Source of the DNA: Anaerolineae bacterium
GTDB lineage: Bacteria > Chloroflexota > Anaerolineae > Aggregatilineales > Phototrophicaceae
Assembly (NCBI GenBank): GCA_022843745.1
Contig: JALHNB010000015.1
Coordinates: 1 to 64,000, forward strand
Length of the DNA: 64,000 nucleotides
Direction: 5' to 3'
Shown here one piece after another: positions 26,472 through 63,783 of this stretch. Under the pieces are notes generated by a model that saw only the letters and a list, made by a program, of their open reading frames with translations, did not search any database and was not told the DNA's origin. Each line of letters starts with the position of its first letter. The stretch's first letter is position 1. The position numbers and the translations under genes were made by a program.

Positions 26472-29237
26472 ATGAGCGCCCATAATCTGCCACGACCATC
26501 TACGCCCTTTGTCGGCAGAGCCGAGGAAGTGGCGCAAATCGCACACCTGCTCAATGGTGGTGACTGCCGCCTGCTAACCCTGACTGGCACGGGTGGGATC
26601 GGCAAAACGCGGCTGGCGGTTGAAGTGACGCAGATGATTGCGAGGATGAGCGAAAAACAGGTTGCCCCGACGACCTTCGCACATGGTGTTCATTTCGTAA
26701 ATTTCCAGCCTGTCGCATCTATTGACGTATTTGCCTCCACCGTGGCGGATGCGCTCAACATTACGGGACGGGAACATCCCCAAACCCGCCTCCTGAACTT
26801 CCTCCGCGAGAAAGAAATGCTGCTGGTGTTCGATAATCTTGAGCATTTGCTAAATGGCATTGAGTGGATTAGTGATGTGTTGGCAAACGCAAGCAAGTTA
26901 AAAATACTCACCACGTCGCGTGAAGCACTGAAGCTCCAGGAAGAATGGTTGTATCCTATTCGAGGGTTGTCGTTTCCTACCGATACCGATGAAAGTGAAG
27001 TCGAACGATATGAGGCTGTCCAGGTTTTTCTCCAAAGCGCCCGCCGTGTACAGCCGGACTTTTTGATCGCTCGTGAGCAGAGAGGGTTGATTCGTATCTG
27101 CCGCCAAACAGAAGGCATTCCATTGGCGGTGGAAATGGCGGCTTCATGGGTCAATGTGCTGTCATGCGAGCAGATCGCTGATGAAATGCAGAACAGCATG
27201 AATTTTTTGACAGCGTCTGCCCGCAATCTACCTGAACGCCACCGCAGTATGCGTGCCGTATTCGATCATTCCTGGGGGCTGTTATCTGAAAATGAGCGCC
27301 AGGTTTTCAGGAAATTATCTATTTTTCACGGCGGGTTTACATTGGATGCTGCTGAACAGGTGACTGGAGCAAAGCTGCTCGTGCTGGCGGCGCTTGTGGA
27401 AAAATCACTTGTTCGGAGGCTGCCTTCAGGCCGATGGGATATGCACCAACTGCTGCGACAATTCGCAGAGGAGAAACTTCGCGAATCTATTGAGGAAAAA
27501 AACGCTGTTCGGGATCGACACTGTGCCTATTACGCCGAGTATCTCCATCAATTGACTAAACATATGCGATCCGATGGGGAACATAGCGCCCTGCAAGCGA
27601 TTGAGAAAGAACTCGATAATGTGCGGGCGTGCTGGGAACGGGCTATCGAACAAATCAATATTGAGGCATTCAAAAAATGTCAGGAATCGCTACGCGTATT
27701 TTATCATGTACAAGATCGCTTTCATGAAGGCGAAAGCATATTTGGCAGGGCAGTGGCGGCTTTAGAGCGAGTAGAACCGGGTGAAGCGCGAGATGTTACA
27801 TTGGCGCTGCTGCTCATCGGGCATGGGAAATGCTGTTTGAGACTCGGTCAACACCAGCGGGCAAAAGAAATGCTGGAAAGCAGCGTCGCAATCCTGCGCC
27901 ATTACAAGGTCTATCGAGAACTCGGTTGGGCGCTCTATGATCTTTCGCGTGTTCTGCACGAACGAGAGGAATTCCGGGAAGCAGCGAGGGTAGAGCAGGA
28001 ATCGCTGGCGCTTGGAAAGGCCGCCGGAGACATCGCGCTCATTGCCTGGTCATATTTTGAACTAAGCTGCACCGTTCGCATGTATGGCAACTATTCCGAC
28101 TCGCTGCATTTCATGCAGGAGAGCGTTTCGCATCTCATCAAGTCCGGGGATGAGGATGGTATCGCAATTGGATTGCGCGGCCTGGGTGAACGACTGCGAG
28201 AACGCGGTGAGTATTATCGAGCAAAACCGATTTACCAGCAGGCCATTGCCATCCACCGAAAACTGAACTACAAAACAAAATTATCTACCGTGCTGGAAGG
28301 CTATGGAGCAACTCTATTCGCACTGGGCCAATATGAAGCAGCCAGGGAAATAATCGAGGAAAGCCTGGCGATTGCGCGTGAGTTAGGTTTTCCCCGCAGA
28401 CTGGCTTTTTCGTTGATTAGTCTTGCTAACGTAAGCCTGTCGCTTGGTGATCTTGATGCGGCGGAACGCTACTTTCATGAAAGCCTGATGGTTTCCACTA
28501 AAACTGCCGAACCCTGGCAGCAAGCACTATCGACAAAGGGTTTGGGACGCATCGCCTTTCGACGGGGGCAGTATGATGATGCAAAGGCGTTCTTTCAAGA
28601 AAGTCTGGTCGTCAATCGAAATATGGAATTTCGTTTAGAAACTGCCACCAGCCTTAGTGAACTGGGCAGTGTTGCAGTTGTGCAAGGAAACATGCTCGAA
28701 GCCCGACGATTTTTTCGAGACTCACTGAGTATCGGGCTTGAGATACAGCTTACGCCTGTGCTTCTCGAAATCATGATGGGTATCGCCGGATTGTTCGTGG
28801 CAGAAGGTGAACATGCAAAGGCGATAAAGCTTGTGGCGACCATCGTCGATCATCCTGCAAGTCATCATGTGGTGAAAGATAGAGCTAGAGAAGCTTCCGA
28901 GATTTTAAATCCGTTGAAGGCTGAATATTCACCACCTGCCCGGAAACGTGAGGAAGCTGTCGACGTATTAGCGGCTGAACTCCTGGGCGAACTCACTGCC
29001 ACACTGGGAGAAACTGTCCTGCAAGTCCAACAGATGCTGGTTGAACCCCTGAGCCAAAGAGAGCTGGAAGTTTTAACACTGGTCGCTGAAGGGTTTACCA
29101 ACCGGGATATTGCCATTCAGCTTTACATTGGCATCAGCACCGTCAAAAAGCACATGAACCATCTCTACCGCAAACTGGATGTCAAAAACCGCACGCAAGC
29201 CGTTGCCCGCGCCCGCGAGTATAAAATTCTGCGGTGA
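26472..29237 (+). CDS. STAND ATPase-TPR-LuxR transcriptional regulator 1
   Basis: The 921-residue regulator is of MalT/NB-ARC style. TPFVGRAEEV (11-20) opens the ATPase. The Walker A box is GTGGIGKT (39-46), Walker B is MLLVFDNLEHLL near 115, and ILTTSREAL and GIPLAVEMAASWV (the GLPLA motif) follow. Residues about 270-340 form a winged-helix segment and about 380-800 carry TPR-like helical repeats. The C-terminus is a LuxR helix-turn-helix: LSQRELEVLTLVAEGFTNRDIA and STVKKHMNHLYRKLDVKNRTQA. Such proteins change oligomeric state when a ligand binds the TPR/NB part. It has no repeat insertion after the Walker A helix, unlike its two paralogs. Confidence 0.93.
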   Translation: MSAHNLPRPSTPFVGRAEEVAQIAHLLNGGDCRLLTLTGTGGIGKTRLAVEVTQMIARMSEKQVAPTTFAHGVHFVNFQPVASIDVFASTVADALNITGREHPQTRLLNFLREKEMLLVFDNLEHLLNGIEWISDVLANASKLKILTTSREALKLQEEWLYPIRGLSFPTDTDESEVERYEAVQVFLQSARRVQPDFLIAREQRGLIRICRQTEGIPLAVEMAASWVNVLSCEQIADEMQNSMNFLTASARNLPERHRSMRAVFDHSWGLLSENERQVFRKLSIFHGGFTLDAAEQVTGAKLLVLAALVEKSLVRRLPSGRWDMHQLLRQFAEEKLRESIEEKNAVRDRHCAYYAEYLHQLTKHMRSDGEHSALQAIEKELDNVRACWERAIEQINIEAFKKCQESLRVFYHVQDRFHEGESIFGRAVAALERVEPGEARDVTLALLLIGHGKCCLRLGQHQRAKEMLESSVAILRHYKVYRELGWALYDLSRVLHEREEFREAARVEQESLALGKAAGDIALIAWSYFELSCTVRMYGNYSDSLHFMQESVSHLIKSGDEDGIAIGLRGLGERLRERGEYYRAKPIYQQAIAIHRKLNYKTKLSTVLEGYGATLFALGQYEAAREIIEESLAIARELGFPRRLAFSLISLANVSLSLGDLDAAERYFHESLMVSTKTAEPWQQALSTKGLGRIAFRRGQYDDAKAFFQESLVVNRNMEFRLETATSLSELGSVAVVQGNMLEARRFFRDSLSIGLEIQLTPVLLEIMMGIAGLFVAEGEHAKAIKLVATIVDHPASHHVVKDRAREASEILNPLKAEYSPPARKREEAVDVLAAELLGELTATLGETVLQVQQMLVEPLSQRELEVLTLVAEGFTNRDIAIQLYIGISTVKKHMNHLYRKLDVKNRTQAVARAREYKILR

Positions 29238-31747: not shown

Positions 31748-31776
31748 TTACCGAATGGCGGCGATCCATGTACAAT
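31748..31776 (+). promoter_or_regulatory. Candidate promoter of STAND regulator 2
   Basis: TTACCG (31748-31753) and TACAAT (31771-31776, preceded by TG) are 17 bases apart. The -10 overlaps an ATG at 31768, which argues that translation starts downstream at the GTG at 31813. Confidence 0.5.
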
Positions 31777-31812
31777 AACTGCATCACACAAACATCATCA
31801 GGATATTTTATC

Positions 31813-34359
31813 GTGCTGCCCCGACATTCAACGCCATTTATTGGCAGAGCCGAGGAAGTAGCCGAAATCGCGCATCTGCTCAACAATCCAGCTTGCCAAC
31901 TGCTGACGTTGGCTGGCCCCGGCGGGATTGGTAAAACGCGGCTGGCGCTGGAAGTGGCGCAAGGGTTTGCGGCGGTAGAAACAAAAGAGATCAATGACGC
32001 GCGAAACACAAGGGCAGGTCTGAGACCTGCCCCTACGCATTTTACACATGGGGTTCATTTTGTCCCGTTACAAGCGCTTGCTTCGCCCGATTTTCTGATG
32101 TCCACGATTGCCGAAACGCTGAATTTCCAGTTTCATTCCGGCGACTCAAAACAACAACTCCTGCACTATTTCCACGACAAGGTGCTGCTGCTGGTGCTGG
32201 ATAATTTTGAGCATCTGATGGACGGCGCGGAACTACTCTCTGAAATTCTGAATAACGCGCCGGGAGTGCGGATTCTGGCGACCTCACGCGAACGGCTCAA
32301 CCTGCTCGAAGAGTGGGTTTTTGATGTGCGCGAACTCCGATTTCCCACAAATGAAGGCGAAACGGAAATTGATTCTTACGACGCGGTACAGTTGTTTATG
32401 CAGCACGCGCGGCGTGTCCACAGTGGCTTTACGCTTTCGGCATCGCAAAAACCGGCTGTGATCCGCATCTGCCGTCTGGTGGGAGGGATGCCGCTGGCAA
32501 TCGAACTGGCGGCGGCATGGGTGCGAGTGCTGCCGTGCGAATCTATTGCCGACGAAATTGAGCGCAGCCTGGATATTCTGGAGTCATCGGCGCGCAACAT
32601 AGAGGATCGTCACCGGACGATATGGGCGGCGTTCGAACCCACATGGCGGCGACTGCCCGTTGATGAAGCGGACGTTTTTAAAAAGCTGGCGGTGTTTCGC
32701 GGTGGTTTTACACGCGAGGCGGCGGAGCAGATTACAGGCACATCGCTGCGCACACTTTCGGCGCTGGTCGATAAATCGCTGATCCGGCGCGAAGCGGATG
32801 GGCGTTACCAGATGCACGAACTCCTGCGCCAGTATGCCGATGAACAGCTTTCAAAAAGCGACGAAGCTGCCACAAAAACACATGACGCACACACAAACTA
32901 CTACATGAGACTTTTAGGTCGCCGGGAGATGGATCTGTATTCCGCCCGGCAGCGTGAAACCATCCAGGAATTAGAGGCTGAACTCGATAATATTCGCGCG
33001 GCCTGGCAGCAGGCTGTTGATGAGGCGAATGTGATGGCGTTCCAAACGGGAGGGTTCGCTTATTACGATTTTGCAGACCTGCGGGGGCGTTACCAGGAGG
33101 GTATTGATGCTATCGAAAAGGCAATCAAACGTCTGAAATCCATTGCGGCTGACCCAGAACGCGATTTTGCACTGGCGATTCTGCATAACGCCATCAGCGG
33201 GCTTTACATCCGTGTGGGGCGATTTGAAGAGGCGCGAAAGGCTGTTGAGACGAGCATTGCCGCTTACCGTGAACTTGGGCGGCGGCCTCATCCCGGATTC
33301 GCGACAGAACCGCTGAGTGGAATGGGGCTGCTTTCGCTGACCACAGGCGATTACGACGCGGCGGTCATGTACTGCGAAGAGGCGATTCAAGCTGTCGATG
33401 CCGATGACAAACTCAATATTATGTTCGCGAAGTATGTGTTGGCGAGCGCGACCTATTCGCAGGGAAATTCGCAAGCGGCCTTCGATCATGCACAGCAGGC
33501 TTATCAGATCAGCCAGGAATTCGGCGACGATTATTTTGGCTCGTATATTCTGATCGTGATGGGCAATGTGGCGCAAGCGCTGGAAGATTATGATAAAGCC
33601 TGGGAATACTACGAGACCAGCTACAAAATCAAGAAGGATTTTAAGGAGTACGGCGGGATGGCGTTCGCGCTGAACTACCTGGGGCGGATCGCGTTGCTGC
33701 GGGAAGATTATGCGGAAGCGAAAAGGCTTTTTCAGCAGGGATATGATCTCTATCGGGATGTCAATGATCCGGGTGGAATCGCGACATCAAATTTTGGATT
33801 GGGCGATAACGCGCTGGCAGAAGCCGAATATTCAGCAGCACAGACTTACTTTTATGACGCGCTGGTGATGGCAACAGACATCCATTGGACACCGTTAATT
33901 CTGGCGATTCTGGCCGGGGTCGGTGATCTGCTGCTGCGATCCGGTGACACCGAACAAGCGGCTGAATTATTGGCACTGGCCGCCCAGCACCCGGCAAGCG
34001 AACCGCCTACCTGCCGGAGAGCTAATCAACTGCTGAAGCAACATGCTTTGGGGAAAACACAGCGCAAAGTATCTGATCTGGATGCGACGGTGCGGCGGGT
34101 ATGCGAGATGCTTAAAGCGCCGAAGCATTATCCGATTGATACTCAACCTCTAAGCCCGAAAACGGTTGACGCGCTTTCGGAACGGGAGATCGAGATTCTG
34201 CGGCTTTTGGCGCAGGGAATGACCAACCAGGAAATTGCCGAAGCATTATTTCTCGTTCTGGGGACGATCAAGGCGCACAACAATCACATTTTCAGCAAGC
34301 TGGGCGTGAAGAATCGGACACAGGCAATCAAGCGGGCGCAGGAATTGGGGCTGATTTAG
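31813..34359 (+). CDS. STAND ATPase-TPR-LuxR transcriptional regulator 2
   Basis: The GTG at 31813 is chosen because CAGGAT lies just upstream, as in regulator 3, and because the earlier ATG at 31768 falls in the likely -10 box. The 848-residue product has TPFIGRAEEV, Walker A GPGGIGKT near residue 35, Walker B LLLVLDNFEHLM, SRERLNLLEEW, GMPLAIELAAAWV and VFKKLAVFRGGFTREAAEQI. A TPR-rich middle (FDHAQQAYQISQEFGDDYFGSYI and similar) follows. The C-terminus is LSEREIEILRLLAQGMTNQEIAEALFL, a LuxR domain. A short R1 repeat is translated in frame shortly after the Walker A helix. Regulators 2 and 3 are closer to one another than to regulator 1. Confidence 0.92.
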   Translation: MLPRHSTPFIGRAEEVAEIAHLLNNPACQLLTLAGPGGIGKTRLALEVAQGFAAVETKEINDARNTRAGLRPAPTHFTHGVHFVPLQALASPDFLMSTIAETLNFQFHSGDSKQQLLHYFHDKVLLLVLDNFEHLMDGAELLSEILNNAPGVRILATSRERLNLLEEWVFDVRELRFPTNEGETEIDSYDAVQLFMQHARRVHSGFTLSASQKPAVIRICRLVGGMPLAIELAAAWVRVLPCESIADEIERSLDILESSARNIEDRHRTIWAAFEPTWRRLPVDEADVFKKLAVFRGGFTREAAEQITGTSLRTLSALVDKSLIRREADGRYQMHELLRQYADEQLSKSDEAATKTHDAHTNYYMRLLGRREMDLYSARQRETIQELEAELDNIRAAWQQAVDEANVMAFQTGGFAYYDFADLRGRYQEGIDAIEKAIKRLKSIAADPERDFALAILHNAISGLYIRVGRFEEARKAVETSIAAYRELGRRPHPGFATEPLSGMGLLSLTTGDYDAAVMYCEEAIQAVDADDKLNIMFAKYVLASATYSQGNSQAAFDHAQQAYQISQEFGDDYFGSYILIVMGNVAQALEDYDKAWEYYETSYKIKKDFKEYGGMAFALNYLGRIALLREDYAEAKRLFQQGYDLYRDVNDPGGIATSNFGLGDNALAEAEYSAAQTYFYDALVMATDIHWTPLILAILAGVGDLLLRSGDTEQAAELLALAAQHPASEPPTCRRANQLLKQHALGKTQRKVSDLDATVRRVCEMLKAPKHYPIDTQPLSPKTVDALSEREIEILRLLAQGMTNQEIAEALFLVLGTIKAHNNHIFSKLGVKNRTQAIKRAQELGLI
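32010..32036. repeat. R1 repeat translated inside STAND regulator 2
   Basis: AGGGCAGGTCTGAGACCTGC and the following CCCTAC form an R1 palindrome within the ATPase coding region. It adds about RAGLRPAPT between the Walker A helix and the conserved FTHGVHF segment without breaking the frame. Confidence 0.85.
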
Positions 34360-34845
34360 CGAGAAGCGGGGAAGCGGGGAAGTGGGGAAGTCCACCCTCC
34401 ACCAAATCGGGTCAAGTCCAAGTCCAACCTCACCCCCAGCCCCTCTCCGCAAGCGAGAGAGGGGAGAAAAGCAGAGGGTTTATGACGCGATAGTTTTGGG
34501 GGAACTCGCGGTGGGGGTGCGCATGTGCAGCAAGGGCAGGTCTGAGAGGGTGTTGAAAAAGGGCTTCATAATACGACCCCTCCCCATTTCGCAGGCTCAT
34601 GGAGAGGGGAGAAATGCTGCTTTTAAATCCCTCGCCATGAGGGTTTACGACACGACACTTTTGGGAAATCGGCGGTGTTTGTGCGCATGGGCAGCAAGGG
34701 CAGGTCTGAGACCGGCCCCTACGGAAATACATCCCTCATAATTTCTGTGGTTAGGCTCATCAATCACGCGCGGGATACCATTTTGCGAGATGTTATTGGG
34801 GCATGTAAAATGGGCGATCAACCATGAATCAGCAGGATTTTCACG
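34360..34845. repeat. Intergenic region with R2, R1 and partial R4 repeats
   Basis: After the stop come 8-bp tandem units (GAAGCGGG) at about 34363-34390, R2 hairpins at about 34427-34465 and 34578-34612, and two partial R4 composites. The clearer one is at 34642-34721 (TTTACGACACGACACTTTTG, GGCGGTGTTTGTGCGC, R1 core). No gene is supported. Confidence 0.65.
34783..34811 (+). promoter_or_regulatory. Promoter of STAND regulator 3
   Basis: TTGCGA (34783-34788) and TAAAAT (34806-34811, preceded by TG) are separated by 17 bases. The -10 context ATGTAAAATGGG is the same as at regulator 1. Confidence 0.65.
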
Positions 34846-37425
34846 TTGATCGCATCCAAACTCCCTCGACAGTCAACACCCTTCATAGGACGCGCGAAGG
34901 AAGTGCGCGAAATTGGGCAACTGCTGGATGATCCGGCTTGCCAGCTCTTGACGCTGGTCGGCCCCGGCGGGATCGGCAAAACGCGGCTGGCGGTTGAAGT
35001 CGCAGAAGCAATTAACCCTCACCCCCAACCCCTCTTCCCACGGGGACTTCCTTCGGGCGCCCTCAAGGGGCGAGGGGAGAAAATGCAAGACGGGAGTGCA
35101 ATGGGTATCCGTACAAATTTCGCGGATGGGGTGTATTTTGTGCCATTGCAGGCGCTGACATCGCCGGATTTTATCGTGGGCGCGATTGCCGAAGCGCTTG
35201 GCTTTCAATTCTATGCGGGTGATTCCAGGCGGCAGCTTCTCGATTATCTGCGTGACAAAACGATGCTGCTGGTGATGGATAATTTTGAGCATCTGATGGA
35301 CGGCGTGACGCTGGCATCAGAGATTTTGGAGGCCGCGCCGGGGGTACGGATTCTGGTGACCTCCCGCGAACGGCTGAACCTGCTCGAAGAGTGGGTTTTT
35401 GATGTGCATGAACTCAAATATCCAACGAACGATGCCGAAGCCGAGATGGAGAATTATGAAGCGGTGCAGTTGTTCATCCAGCACGCGCAACGGGCGTATC
35501 GCAGTTTTAACCTGACGGACGAACAAAAACCCGCTATCACACGAATCTGCCGATTGGTAGATGGGATGCCGTTGGGAATCGAATTGGCGGCATCGTGGGT
35601 GCGGGTGCTGTCGTGCGATGCGATTGCCGACGAGATCGAGCGCAATCTGGACATTCTGAACACGCCCATGCGCAATATCGAACCGCGCCACCGAACCATG
35701 CGGGCGGCGTTCGAGCCAACCTGGAACAGGCTGTCTGTCGCAGAAAGTCAGGCTTTTAAGCGGCTGTCGGTTTTTCGCGGCGGTTTTTCGCGCGAGGCGG
35801 CGGAAGTCGTGGCAGGTGCTTCCCTGCGCACACTCTCGGCGCTGGTCGATAAATCGCTGCTGCGGGTGGGCGCGAACGGGCGATATGACATCCACGAACT
35901 GCTGCGACAATATGCTGGGGAGCAGCTTTCGCCGGAAGAACACGATCAGGCGCACGGACGGCACAGCGCTTATTACGCGGAAGTGCTGCACCAGCAATGG
36001 GAGCATCTCAGGGGCAGACATCAAAAACAGGCACTTCGGGAGATTGAAGCGGAACTTGATAACGTGCGGGCAAGCTGGAAATGGGCAGCCACGCACCAAC
36101 AAACCGATTCTCTCGACAAAATGATGGACAGCCTGTGGTTTTTTTATGATATTTACGCGCATAACCAGGAGGGGTGGCAGGCTTTCCAAATGGCGGTGGA
36201 GAGTCTGACTAGGGATGCGTTTTTGAGGCAACCTCACCCCCCAGCCCCCTCTCCGCAAGCAGAGAGGGGGAGTAAAAATCAGCCTGGCGAAAAAGGCATT
36301 CAAAAATCTTCTCAGGCTGAGAGTGTGACGATGGGGAGGCTGCTGGCGCAGCAGGGCGGGTTTGCGTTTAGTCTGACGCAGCCCAAGCAGGCGCGTCAAC
36401 TCCTGGAAAATGGCCTGACGATTTTGCGCCAGCATGAGGCGCATCGAGATACTGCCTTTGCGCTGCTGCGGTTGAGCGAAGTCACCATGTTTCATGAAAG
36501 TAATCCGGCAGCGGCGAAACTCTATCTTCAGGAAAGCCTGATGATTTACCAGCAAAGTGGCGACGAATGGGGAATCGCCTATGCGATACGCTGGCTGGGT
36601 TTCGCGGCGCTGCTTTTAGAGGATTTTGAGGAAGCACGGCGGCTGGGCCAGGAAAGCTTTGCCACGTATCAGAAAACGGGCGATCTGGGGGGTATGGCTA
36701 TCGCGCTTTCGATTGTGGGGCTGGCGGCGCTGGGGATGCAGGATTATCCGACTGCCAAACAAGCCGGACAGGAAAGCCTGGCATTGTGCCGGGAAATTGG
36801 CCTGCATTGGGCGATGGTGCAGGGATTGCTGGCGGCAGCAGGAGCGACCTGCGCATTGGGCGAATATGACGAATCCAGGCGATTTTTTCAGGAAAGCCTG
36901 AAGATTACATCCGAGCGCCGATTTATTGGCGATATTTTGTGGACGTTTGTGGAAAGCGCCAATTTGTGGATGGCGTTCGGCAGGCAGGAATGGGCTGTCG
37001 AGCTTCTGACGTTTTCGCTGCATTATCCGATCCCTCCGGCGATAGGCACAGCGCCGATTTTGCGTCTGCTGGCAAAACTGGAAGCGGAGATGCCTGCTGG
37101 TGTGTTCCAAGCCGCCAGCGAACGCGGAAAAATGCGCGACCTGGACGCAACTGTAAGCGAGGTGCTTGCCGAACTCGAAGCGCTGGATACCAGCGTGACG
37201 GCAGCACGTTCAACATCGTCCCGGTCATCCGTCGATTCTCTCAGCGAACGCGAAATGGAAATTCTACGACTGCTAGCGGACGGGCTGACTAATCAGCAAA
37301 TCGCTGAAAAGCTGTTCCTCGTCCTGGGAACGGTCAAATCGCATAATAACCATATTTTTAGCAAACTCGGCGTGAAAAACCGGACACAGGCGATTAAGCG
37401 GGCAGGGGAGTTGGGGTTGGTTTAG
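34846..37425 (+). CDS. STAND ATPase-TPR-LuxR transcriptional regulator 3
   Basis: The start is a TTG at 34846 with CAGGAT upstream. The 859-residue protein matches regulator 2 closely: TPFIGRAKEV, Walker A GPGGIGKT (39-46), Walker B MLLVMDNFEHLM, ILVTSRERLNLLEEW, GMPLGIELAASWV and FKRLSVFRGGFSREAAEVV. Helical TPR repeats such as ARRLGQESFATYQKTGDLGG follow, then a C-terminal LuxR domain (LSEREMEILRLLADGLTNQQIAEKLFL). Two repeat-derived peptides are embedded: one after the Walker A helix (35014-35083) and one between the winged helix and the TPRs (36229-36277). Both keep the frame. The HET-like gene follows on the same strand. Confidence 0.92.
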   Translation: MIASKLPRQSTPFIGRAKEVREIGQLLDDPACQLLTLVGPGGIGKTRLAVEVAEAINPHPQPLFPRGLPSGALKGRGEKMQDGSAMGIRTNFADGVYFVPLQALTSPDFIVGAIAEALGFQFYAGDSRRQLLDYLRDKTMLLVMDNFEHLMDGVTLASEILEAAPGVRILVTSRERLNLLEEWVFDVHELKYPTNDAEAEMENYEAVQLFIQHAQRAYRSFNLTDEQKPAITRICRLVDGMPLGIELAASWVRVLSCDAIADEIERNLDILNTPMRNIEPRHRTMRAAFEPTWNRLSVAESQAFKRLSVFRGGFSREAAEVVAGASLRTLSALVDKSLLRVGANGRYDIHELLRQYAGEQLSPEEHDQAHGRHSAYYAEVLHQQWEHLRGRHQKQALREIEAELDNVRASWKWAATHQQTDSLDKMMDSLWFFYDIYAHNQEGWQAFQMAVESLTRDAFLRQPHPPAPSPQAERGSKNQPGEKGIQKSSQAESVTMGRLLAQQGGFAFSLTQPKQARQLLENGLTILRQHEAHRDTAFALLRLSEVTMFHESNPAAAKLYLQESLMIYQQSGDEWGIAYAIRWLGFAALLLEDFEEARRLGQESFATYQKTGDLGGMAIALSIVGLAALGMQDYPTAKQAGQESLALCREIGLHWAMVQGLLAAAGATCALGEYDESRRFFQESLKITSERRFIGDILWTFVESANLWMAFGRQEWAVELLTFSLHYPIPPAIGTAPILRLLAKLEAEMPAGVFQAASERGKMRDLDATVSEVLAELEALDTSVTAARSTSSRSSVDSLSEREMEILRLLADGLTNQQIAEKLFLVLGTVKSHNNHIFSKLGVKNRTQAIKRAGELGLV
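35014..35083. repeat. R2-like repeat translated inside STAND regulator 3 (site 1)
   Basis: CCCTCACCCCCAACCCCTCT and a downstream CAAGGGGCGAGGGGAGAAAA are R2 ends. Between them a Pro/Gly-rich peptide (PHPQPLFPRGLPSGALKGRG) is encoded. The position corresponds to the R1 insertion in regulator 2. Confidence 0.85.
36229..36277. repeat. R2 repeat translated inside STAND regulator 3 (site 2)
   Basis: CAACCTCACCCCCCAGCCCC with a downstream GCAGAGAGGGGGAGTAAAAA encodes QPHPPAPSPQAERGSK in frame. The segment is absent from regulators 1 and 2. Confidence 0.85.
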
Positions 37426-47734: not shown

Positions 47735-48032
47735 TGGGGATGACCGGGTAAGAGATGTGGTAATCTGGATGGTAGATGGAAAGGGCGGCTCGCGAGCCGC
47801 CCCTACGGACGCTACGACAAAACGTAAGCCATTGGGTCAACTGATCGGTGCATTTAAAACAGTATCCACCAAACACATCAATCTCCAACGTCAAACGCCG
47901 GGGGAGGTACTGTGGCAGCGCAATTATTACGAACACATCATTCGCGACGAGAGCGACCTGGATCGCATCCGATTTTATATTGAGAATAATCCGTCACGCT
48001 GGATTGAGGATACGGAATATCCAGGGACATAA
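47735..48032 (+). pseudogene. RAYT (REP-associated Y1 transposase) C-terminal remnant
   Basis: A frame from about 47757 reads VIWMVDG, an R1-type palindrome (GGGCGGCTCGCGAGCCGCCC, about 47785-47804), then LGQLIGAFKTVSTKHIN, TPGEVLWQRNYYEHIIRDE and RIRFYIENNPSRW. These are the conserved end motifs of the REP-associated tyrosine transposases of the IS200/IS605-like group. The N-terminal half with the HUH motif is missing or degraded, so it should be inactive. The gap 47618-48166 otherwise holds only an R1 palindrome at about 48090-48112. Confidence 0.8.
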
Positions 48033-48166: not shown

Positions 48167-51100
48167 ATGGTGCTTGTTCTGAAAATGAATGAGATCATAA
48201 ATCGTATGCTCAAAAACCTTCCAAAGTTCTACACCCGTGCTGCGGTACTGCTGATGCTCGGTATCGCGCTAATCTCCGTCCGACCTCCTCAAATAACCAG
48301 CCAAGAGTCGATTATCAACCTCGTGGTGAACGGGGATTTTGAAACGGGCGATCTATCGGCATGGGAAGAAATCGGAAACACGACAATCGACTCGCAGGAT
48401 CAACATGCGGGGACTTTTTCGGCGCATGTGACGGATTCCTCCACGCCGCGTCAGGGCTGGATTGAGGTCACGCCGGGGAAAACCTATGTGGCTACGGCGT
48501 GGTTTAAATGGGTGGCGATGTCCGACAGCGATTGGGGCAGCAGCCGATTTACCGTCAATGACGGGGATTTTCAGGAAATCGGCGGGATCAGTAATTTGGA
48601 TCAACGCTACGAGCAAAATATCTGGAACAAGATCGCGTTCACGTTCGTGCCAGCCACAGACCTCGTGATGGTCAGTTTCGGCGTGTTTGGGCCGGAGTCT
48701 ACGATTGACCTGTATTTTGATGACATCATGCTGTTTGAAAAAACGAGCAATGTTCCGGCAGAAATTCAGCCGGAAGCAGATGTTATCAGCGGCACACCGC
48801 CATTAATCGTGAGTTTTTCCGCGAATGCCGACGACAGCGATGGGGCAGTCGCGTTGTATCAGTGGACATTTGGGGATGGCGCAGAGGCGAGAACCGCCAA
48901 CGCCGAGCACACCTATGTTTCGCAAGGCACATTCACCGCCACGCTCAATGCGTTTGACAACGACGGCGCGAAATCCAGCCAAAATCTGGTTATCACCGTG
49001 ACCGATCCGCAAGCGCCTCAAATCGAAATCAGCGCACCATCGTCGACGGAATTATTCACGACAGCGGACGCGGTGACAGCGCTTTCTGGCACAACACACT
49101 CGGATTCCAGCCCGATTGCCAGCGTGGTCTGGGATAATGTGAGTTCGGGCGATGCGGGTGAAGCACCCCTCACCCCCAGCCTTTCAGTAGGTATTTTATG
49201 CAACCCCTCACCCCCAACCCCTCTCCCTCAAGGGGCGAGGGGAGAAAAACAGAGGTTTTGGGATGAGGAAACTGTGCCAAAAACAAAAAGCCTACCCCTG
49301 AAAGTCGCGCCCCTCGCTTACGCGACAGAGGGAGGGGGTGAGGAATGCGAGACATTCAATTGGGCTGTCGAGGCGATTCCTTTGAAGCCGGGCGAGAATG
49401 AGATACTTATCACGGCAACAGATGCGGAGGGTAAGGTCGCGACGGATCGGATATGGATTACCCGAAGCATTGACGCACCCTCTATCGAAAATATTTCAAC
49501 GAATACGACCACGCCGCGAGTCTATGAAAAATATGAGGTGACGTTTGATGTCACCACCATCGCCGAGCAGTACATGTTTATGTACGATCCTGACCCGCCG
49601 GAAGGGGTCGAGCACTATTCCGGCGTGACGGTTGAAGGGGTCATCATGCTGCCGGACGGCGAGCAGGTTACGCATCCGGCGTTTTATTTTGAGGGTACGA
49701 CACGGGTCGGAAATATTTACGAACTCACGGGCGAGCAAAACTGGAAGCTGCGATACAGCCCCCAGCAGACGGGTGTTCATCAGGTTTCGCTGCGAGTCAC
49801 CGATCAATCAGGAACGGTCACGACTCCGGTTGGGTCATTTACCGCCGAAGCGCCGATTCGACCCGGATTTATTCAAGTCTCGGAGCATGACCCGCGCTAT
49901 TTTGAGTATTCGAACGGCACGCTGCATTGGCCTATTGGCATGACGTGGACGGGGGCGGAAATTCCAGAAAACGGGGAAGCGCCTTCGGTGATTAATTATG
50001 ATCGCCCCTGGATGGCGGGAAGGGGCGCGTGGTCTGCAAACTGGGCGCGGTGGAAAAGCAGCGCTGAACAACATGGCAACGAAGGCAGAGGGATTCATTA
50101 CAGCATTCTTGAGCATTATCCCGGCAGCGAGATTTCGCAGTATATTCACACGCCTGACGGCTCCCGAATGTGGATTAGCTGCTTCCTGGACGAGGATTTT
50201 TGCGCCCAGATCGAAAGCGGGAGAACGTATCAGGTCAAGCTGCGGGTGAAAACGCAAGGGATCAACGGGCCAGCGCAAGCCGATTTACCTTATGGATTGG
50301 TCATCAAAAATCACGATTGGCCGCCGGACGATTTTGAGAGAGAAATGCGATCCGCACCAAGCTGGATACCGATGATTGACCAGGATAAAGACTGGCACAC
50401 TATCGTCACCCGCGTGACCGCGCAGAATGACAGCGATGATTTCACCATTTATCTGGATAACGTGACCGCCGGGGAAGCGTTTGTTGATGAATTTTCCATC
50501 CGCGAGGTGCTGGCAGATGGCTCATTGGGGCCGGAGCAGATTCGCAATCCGAGGGCTGACTGGCATACTTATGTCGAGCAGCGCCCGATGGCGGCCTTTG
50601 ACGAAGCGATCACCACAGGGGAAACCAACGGCATCAACCTGCGCTATGTCGTGCATGATAAAAATGACCGTCTGATTAATTCGCTCACCGCTTATGGCGT
50701 GTTCGCGGATTTTGGCGGCGGGTATTATCAACCGGAAAATACCAAAGCTACGTGGCTGCAAAAGCAGTGGTGGCGATACCTTGTTGCGCGGCTGGGATAT
50801 TCGACAGCCGTGTTTGGCTGGGAACTCAACAATGAAGGCCCGCCGGACGACGGAACAGGCAGCCACGCCCGAACCGCGCAGATTTTTGCCCGATGGGTAC
50901 ACGAACTGGACGCTCATCCTCACCTCGCGAATACGTCGTTCTGGTGCTGCTGGGAGCCGACATTCTGGGGCGACGATTCACAGTTTCCCGATGTGGATTT
51001 TGGCGATATTCACCATTATGGCCCGGCAACGGATATGGTGCAGTGGTATCTCGACGAGGCGATCCCCGTTATTAGTTCCCAGGTGGGCAAGCCTGTGGTG

Positions 51101-62835: not shown

Positions 62836-63783
62836 ATGAAAAAAATACTGGTGGTTGGCGGGGTGTCGATTGATACGATTATTCATCTGGACAGGCTGCC
62901 AGAAGGCGTGCCACAGACGCTTTTCGCGAAAGCCACGCATCAGGCGGTTGGCTCGACAGGCGCGGGGAAAGCGCTGAATCTCAACCGACTCGGATTCGAG
63001 GTGACACTGCACGCGATGATCGGCGATGATGCGCCGGGGAGGTTGATTCGCGAAAATTTTGAGCGCGAAAATCTGCGCTTCCTTTATGATGTCGATCCGA
63101 AAGGCACGGAGCAGCATGTGAACCTGATGGACGGGGAGGGCGGACGGATTTCGATTTACACGAACGCGGGAACTTTTGAGCCGGAAGTCGATCTGGTACG
63201 GCTGGAAAGTCTGATCGCGGAAACGGATATTCTGGTCGTCAATATCCTCAATTACTGCCGACAAATTCTGCCGCTGGCGAAACGACGCCACAAGGAAATC
63301 TGGTGCGATATTCACGATTATGACGGCAAAAATCCGTATCATCAGGATTTTATCGAGGCGGCGGATTACCTGTTCATGAGTGCCGACGCGATGCCGGATT
63401 ATCGCGATTTTATGCGGCGAATGATCGAGGCGGGCAAAAAACTCGTTGTCTGCACAAGGGGAAAGGAGGGGGCGGTATTAGCGACCCCTCCCCATTCGCA
63501 AGCTCATGGAGAGGGGAGCAATACGGCGTTCGAGCAATCACCCCGTAACAATTTTATCGAGATGGCTGCGATTCGGAGCTATCCGGTAGTAGATACGAAT
63601 GGGGCGGGGGACAGCTTTTTCGCGGGGTATCTGTATGGATACGAGCAGGGATATGCAGCGGAGAAATGTTCGCAACTGGCGACGATTGCGGGTGGGTTGT
63701 GCGTCTCGTCGCGCGAACTGGTGCATCCGGCAATGAGCACGGCGAAATTGGAGGCGGAATATCGTGTACATTATGAAGAGTAG
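62836..63783 (+). CDS. PfkB-family sugar kinase
   Basis: The ATG at 62836 follows AGGA at a good spacing; an upstream in-frame ATG at 62821 is less likely. The 315-residue protein begins KKILVVGGVSIDTIIHLDRLPEG, has GSTGAGKALNLNRLGF (sugar-binding and PfkB signature 1 region), and ends with VVDTNGAGDSFFAGYLYGYEQG, PfkB signature 2 with the catalytic Asp. An R2 repeat is translated in frame about 35 residues before that signature. It is divergent from the KaiC-like operon. It phosphorylates a sugar or nucleoside; the substrate is not readable. Confidence 0.93.
   Translation: MKKILVVGGVSIDTIIHLDRLPEGVPQTLFAKATHQAVGSTGAGKALNLNRLGFEVTLHAMIGDDAPGRLIRENFERENLRFLYDVDPKGTEQHVNLMDGEGGRISIYTNAGTFEPEVDLVRLESLIAETDILVVNILNYCRQILPLAKRRHKEIWCDIHDYDGKNPYHQDFIEAADYLFMSADAMPDYRDFMRRMIEAGKKLVVCTRGKEGAVLATPPHSQAHGEGSNTAFEQSPRNNFIEMAAIRSYPVVDTNGAGDSFFAGYLYGYEQGYAAEKCSQLATIAGGLCVSSRELVHPAMSTAKLEAEYRVHYEE
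63484..63518. repeat. R2 repeat translated inside the PfkB kinase gene
   Basis: ACCCCTCCCCATTCGCAAGC and the adjoining TCATGGAGAGGGGAG encode TPPHSQAHGEGS, between GAVLA and the conserved C-terminal part. The frame is kept. The same block is a standard intergenic repeat elsewhere in this window. Confidence 0.85.

Follow-up and report, generated by a model that had tools for sequence, protein, structure and literature searches.

Why do two neighbouring sister genes carry two unrelated dispersed repeats in the same loop of the ATPases they encode? The question is posed by a stretch of 64,000 nucleotides, referred to here as the window (positions 1 to 64,000 of contig JALHNB010000015.1, assembly GCA_022843745.1, from an Anaerolineae bacterium of the Chloroflexota), which contains three regulator genes on its plus strand. 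Regulator 2 (31768..34359, 863 residues) and regulator 3 (34846..37425, 859 residues) are NB-ARC/STAND ATPases with a tetratricopeptide repeat (TPR) region and a LuxR-type helix-turn-helix (HTH) domain, and they hold a copy of the repeats R1 and R2, respectively. We consider it very probable that mobile repeats entered, in frame and after the duplication of the gene, a tolerant loop of these sister regulators. According to this model, a STAND regulator would have been duplicated to give regulators 2 and 3, after which R1, a repetitive extragenic palindrome (REP) of the GTAG type, would have entered regulator 2 and the unrelated dispersed element R2 would have entered regulator 3, each in frame and in the loop between the P-loop helix and the strand that follows. 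The elements would have spread by their own means, in the case of GTAG REPs probably through a REP-associated tyrosine transposase (RAYT), and the insertions would be visible in the loop because it is loosely constrained and they were hence not purged from it. Transposition is the presumed mechanism of insertion, and the insert peptides are probably neutral.

Repeat copies in the loop behind Walker A

Genes were called with a simple codon-usage caller of our own, an unpublished gene finder. The assignment of regulators 2 and 3 to the NB-ARC/STAND regulators of LuxR type is based on alignment motifs, namely Walker A, Walker B, a TPR region and a C-terminal LuxR-type HTH, and on Pfam matches to AAA_22, AAA_16 and NB-ARC, which lie partly below the curated cut-off, and to TPR_12 and GerE, which lie above it. 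In an alignment of 17 NB-ARC paralogues of the host genome, both repeats fall between the P-loop helix GKTRLA[LV]EVA and the segment F-x-[HD]-G-V-x-F.

The loop of regulator 2, counted from the Walker A lysine to the G of GVHF (31936..32049), comprises 38 codons, 17 being typical, and includes the R1 element AGGGCAGGTCTGAGACCTGCCCCTAC (32011..32036), a GTAG-tagged REP with a 10-bp stem and a 1-nt loop that is read in frame as RAGLRPAPT and matches the family pattern, GGGCAGGTCT-N-AGACCTGCCC, perfectly. In regulator 3 the loop reaches 49 codons up to the G of GVYF (34981..35127) and contains an R2 block (35014..35087), an imperfect palindrome without a GTAG tag that is translated in frame as a Pro/Gly-rich stretch and whose two ends are matched by other R2 copies. 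The initial annotation, which had described an R1 palindrome in regulator 2 and an R2 block in regulator 3, is thus confirmed in that both are intact in-frame copies. It had also placed them at the same insertion point, which holds for the loop behind the Walker A helix but not for the position within it, as the two repeats occupy opposite ends: R1 supplies the last 9 residues before HFTHG, whereas R2 follows directly on the helix, with about 10 non-repeat residues between it and NFADG. In addition, the account of regulator 3 was incomplete, since a second in-frame R2 copy (36229..36273) had been overlooked; it corresponds to a low-confidence linker between helices at model residues 457-477. 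The third gene, regulator 1 (26472..29237), encodes an NB-ARC-type ATPase with TPR and a LuxR-type HTH and is a more distant paralogue. Its loop (in part 26631..26684) has neither repeat, as had been stated, but measures 26 instead of 17 residues owing to a 9-residue non-repeat extension. This extension was also considered as an eroded R1 copy, an idea that was rejected as 1063 of 20000 random coding windows score equally well.

AlphaFold2 models of both proteins have a high mean pLDDT (94.3 for regulator 2 and 91.8 for regulator 3), and in both the insert lies in a loop of low confidence that connects the P-loop helix with the following strand, within otherwise confident domains. The proposal of a tolerant surface loop is therefore upheld as far as tolerance is concerned, by the low pLDDT of the loop and its standing as the main site of long inserts in the 182 homologue rows described below, while its exposure at the surface appears likely from the fold and the model confidence.

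The genome, 7.96 Mb on 117 contigs with a contamination estimate of 4.04%, is a draft, and repeats are typical points of misassembly; the two copies might thus have been misjoined into the genes. We regard such an artefact as extremely improbable, given that the repeat leaves the reading frame of both genes open and is bordered on either side by conserved homologous sequence, that other genes hold in-frame copies too, and that a sequencing read exceeds the elements in length. Among the best 80 of 579 matches, kept by score, the named relatives of the STAND proteins of the window come mostly from Chloroflexota genomes, which suggests a host of that phylum.

Dispersal of the repeats and history of the sister genes

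R1 is a GTAG-tagged REP, being a short palindrome with a GTAG end and dispersed, mostly intergenic copies, and its 10-bp stem falls within the range of about 6-13 bp taken for such elements. Of the 29 R1 copies examined, 27 have an exact GTAG on one or both sides, a single copy having it on both, and 464 kb of sequence contained 59 GTAG palindromes compared with 0 when the tag was scrambled. We counted 86 R1 sites in the host genome, 56 in the genome G021, 10 in G029 and at most two in each of the remaining 38 of the 41 genomes searched. Within the family the element is patchy, as the other 23 of the 24 same-family relatives searched, G021 being the exception, have none, which suggests transfer or repeated loss. 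A strand bias of R1 with GC skew was looked for and dismissed (11 versus 8 copies).

R2 was counted in the stretches that had been fetched, 1.264 Mb in total, and is present there in 27 copies, 22 of them on two contigs, C15 and C20, which include the window. Inspection by eye of the ends of these 27 R2-like copies revealed no GTAG, and R2 accordingly falls outside the GTAG-tagged REPs. Of the 27 copies, 26 are oriented with the GC skew, regardless of the direction of the neighbouring genes; together with the clustering on two contigs, this could reflect insertion tied to the replication strand or a distinct replicon. Two further in-frame repeats were seen in the window, namely an R2 copy at 49206-49241, outside the domains recognised in a PKD/CBM-domain protein, and a third repeat (CCCCTCCCCATT..GCAAGCTCATGGAGAGGGG) at 63484-63518 in a PfkB-family kinase gene, with one consensus base absent.

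The same 1.264 Mb, 85% of which is coding according to our gene caller, holds 188 repeat elements of all kinds, and only 17 of them lie inside genes, compared with about 160 expected. The depletion fits the loss of harmful insertions and the survival of harmless ones, and R1 and R2 in one loop would as such be survivors at a tolerant site. The claim that the repeats had been recruited as coding sequence is not supported by these numbers, and we consider recruitment unlikely. Other carriers of in-gene copies are, by Pfam, a PKD-domain protein, a PfkB kinase, a glycosyltransferase, a PMT_2 protein, a polysaccharide exporter, a DUF2142/PMT_2 membrane protein (3 copies), and an MBOAT and a weakly GDSL-like protein (2 copies each), in addition to one product without a Pfam match. 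An earlier scan, which used a lower repeat threshold on less sequence, adds a phosphoesterase gene with a copy at C15:82814, which is not listed among the 17, and outside the sample a polyketide synthase gene holds another R1. At the loci with several REPs per gene (L266:17426-18877 and L279:15944-19245), the DUF2142/PMT_2 gene holds three different REPs, and the MBOAT and weakly GDSL-like genes with two REPs each adjoin one another.

The 8 STAND loops in the sample contain 2 elements where 0.0046 would be expected, which corresponds to a post hoc P of ~1e-5 under uniform placement, or to an equally post hoc P of 4.5e-4 if 15% of the coding sequence is assumed to tolerate inserts.

A tree of 182 rows, calculated without the loop columns, joins regulators 2 and 3 as sisters (support 88) and places them in a set of four rows (support 98) together with two proteins that lack inserts, one from G021 and the other a paralogue on contig C53; regulator 1 is more distant. 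The closest insert-free relatives have loops of 15-17 residues. As the two genes are sisters and their nearest relatives lack inserts, separate insertions after the duplication are most likely, and a duplication followed by two independent insertions, of R1 and of R2, is the most economical history. Over 300 aligned codons, regulators 2 and 3 differ by a dN of 0.24 and a dS of about 1.0-1.1, which indicates purifying selection and makes it unlikely that they are pseudogenes.

The loop in homologues and the order of events

The variability of the loop was examined in the 182 homologue rows, aligned over 200 profile columns; the homologues fetched were 60 chosen down a longer list. The profile splits regulators 2 and 3, which therefore stand outside the insert counts, while regulator 1 is counted, and three rows with apparent loops of 5-7 residues resemble split alignments. 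The loop has 17 residues in 144 of the rows, and 18 of the 25 inserts of at least 6 residues fall at match positions 48 and 51, two neighbouring positions in the loop. Six relatives that are free of R1 (G005, G008, G009, G010, G013 and G018) contribute nine loops of 23-30 unrelated residues, and thus the loop varies without R1. Had equally long, unrelated loops been found in repeat-free genomes, the link between repeats and loop length would have been in doubt, and this is half the case: long loops do occur without R1, but all are shorter than the 38 and 49 residues of regulators 2 and 3, and several of the relatives in question have their own REPs near RAYT genes and are hence not repeat-free. 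R1 as a general cause of long loops was rejected on the basis of these nine loops and of those in G021.

In another lineage the loop contains a repeat of a different kind, an array of a 7-nt unit at positions 1661-1699 of locus L192. The loop of L196 resembles that of L192 but is more decayed and, on inspection by eye, is read as its decayed relative, although the tandem finder detected no array there. The unit has 84 matches in the genome of L192, 58 in G042, from which L196 derives, and 124 in G043, compared with 0 in each of G000, G008 and G044; the loop of L209, from G043, does not show it. Taken together with R1 and R2, the array of L192 implies that different genome-specific repeats entered the loop in at least two lineages. 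Two further candidates were rejected as repeats, namely the loop of L065, which has only weak partial genome matches (25 nt at 92%, E 0.0025; 26 nt at 88%, E 0.2), and that of L209, which has no genome match below E 0.27.

Sister paralogues have unrelated repeats in one and the same loop, other genomes have long loops at this site, and another lineage has a third type of repeat there. This might be taken to mean that the inserts are selected, the repeat peptides tuning oligomerisation or partner choice and the repeats having been recruited to diversify the sister regulators. We find this improbable, as the inserts have no common sequence and low model confidence, repeats are generally depleted from genes, and most rows have no insert at all. 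Also improbable is a reading in which the loop is a recurrent sink for any dispersed repeat, be it a GTAG REP, R2 or a 7-nt array, and gives sister regulators new, fast-diverging peptides beside the nucleotide pocket that could alter oligomerisation.

A more serious competitor, to which we give a fair hearing while holding it to be the less likely course, is that indel drift lengthened the loop first and that the repeats are incidental passengers in a long unconstrained loop. The extended loops of regulator 1 and of the six R1-free relatives, as well as the non-repeat extra sequence in both loops, speak for such an order, and the short loops of the closest insert-free relatives speak against it. 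It is compatible with in-frame entry of mobile repeats into a tolerant loop and alters only the order of events.

Several observations weigh against our preferred model of post-duplication insertion. Beyond the repeats, the loops hold about 12 (regulator 2) and 7 (regulator 3) extra non-repeat residues, so that a simple single insertion does not account for both, and a longer loop may already have been present in their common ancestor. A second copy of these non-repeat parts was sought in 1.26 Mb and none was found, which led us to reject a repeat origin for them. The same gene with an unoccupied site was not found in any genome, so that the two insertions are not documented as events; the probability given for the hot spot is a post hoc figure; G021 has 56 R1 sites, yet the STAND loops read there have only 17-19 residues; a RAYT flanked by REPs of the R1 type was looked for and not found; and R2 has neither a GTAG tag nor a known mobiliser.

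RAYT genes and comparison with known systems

The window contains a C-terminal RAYT fragment (47769..48032, plus strand; NF047646 match below cut-off) that lacks the N-terminal half in that frame and has a GTAG REP at its 5' edge (about 47783-47806), and a RAYT of the host genome lies at C49:5010-5570. The REPs beside both have cores other than that of R1. In the host and its relatives, 23 RAYT-like places were read (L292-L321), and in 16 of them the linker that follows the HUH motif contains a GTAG palindrome; at L302 the frame changes at this palindrome. In many cases the palindrome equals or closely resembles the REP beside the same gene, a match that might reflect homing or self-regulation; the cores differ between genomes.

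The presence of repeats in the STAND loop is real, non-random and mechanistically ordinary. In these duplicated proteins one tolerant site is marked by different selfish repeats, so that repeats can act as a natural insertion mutagenesis by which permissive loops are mapped. In STAND proteins the site so identified is a single loop that takes up 20-30 additional residues, which could be useful for tagging and for probing the role of this part of the domain. Search listings from an open-access library showed no earlier report of repeats in this loop. The closest solved structures by sequence profile are the nucleotide-binding domains of AfsR (E 1.7e-28), Apaf-1 and plant NLRs, and the fold search adds a STAND TPR sensor, resistosomes and CED-4 as neighbours.

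As for the repeats, a precedent is given by subclass 2.4 tnpAREP/RAYT genes, in which, according to Quentin et al. 2018 (PMC6006769), REPs lie between the HuH and Y motifs, keep the frame and are thought to be tolerated in a peripheral extension. The RAYTs of the relatives studied here show a pattern similar to the one described there, whereas in regulators 2 and 3 the host gene is an unrelated regulator and not the transposase itself. Rickettsia palindromic elements, according to Di Nocera et al. 2013 (PMC3733652), are tagged by CGTC, which distinguishes them from R1 with its GTAG terminus. The same paper reports GTAG REPs as mostly intergenic with few in frame within genes, much as observed here, and different REPs near the same recB site in two Xanthomonas species. 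Compared with the cases given there, the present one concerns sister paralogues of one genome, includes an element without the GTAG tag and has the loop of a STAND regulator as its host. Given the precedent of in-frame REPs, the kind of event is already described, and what is added here is an unusually clear hot spot.
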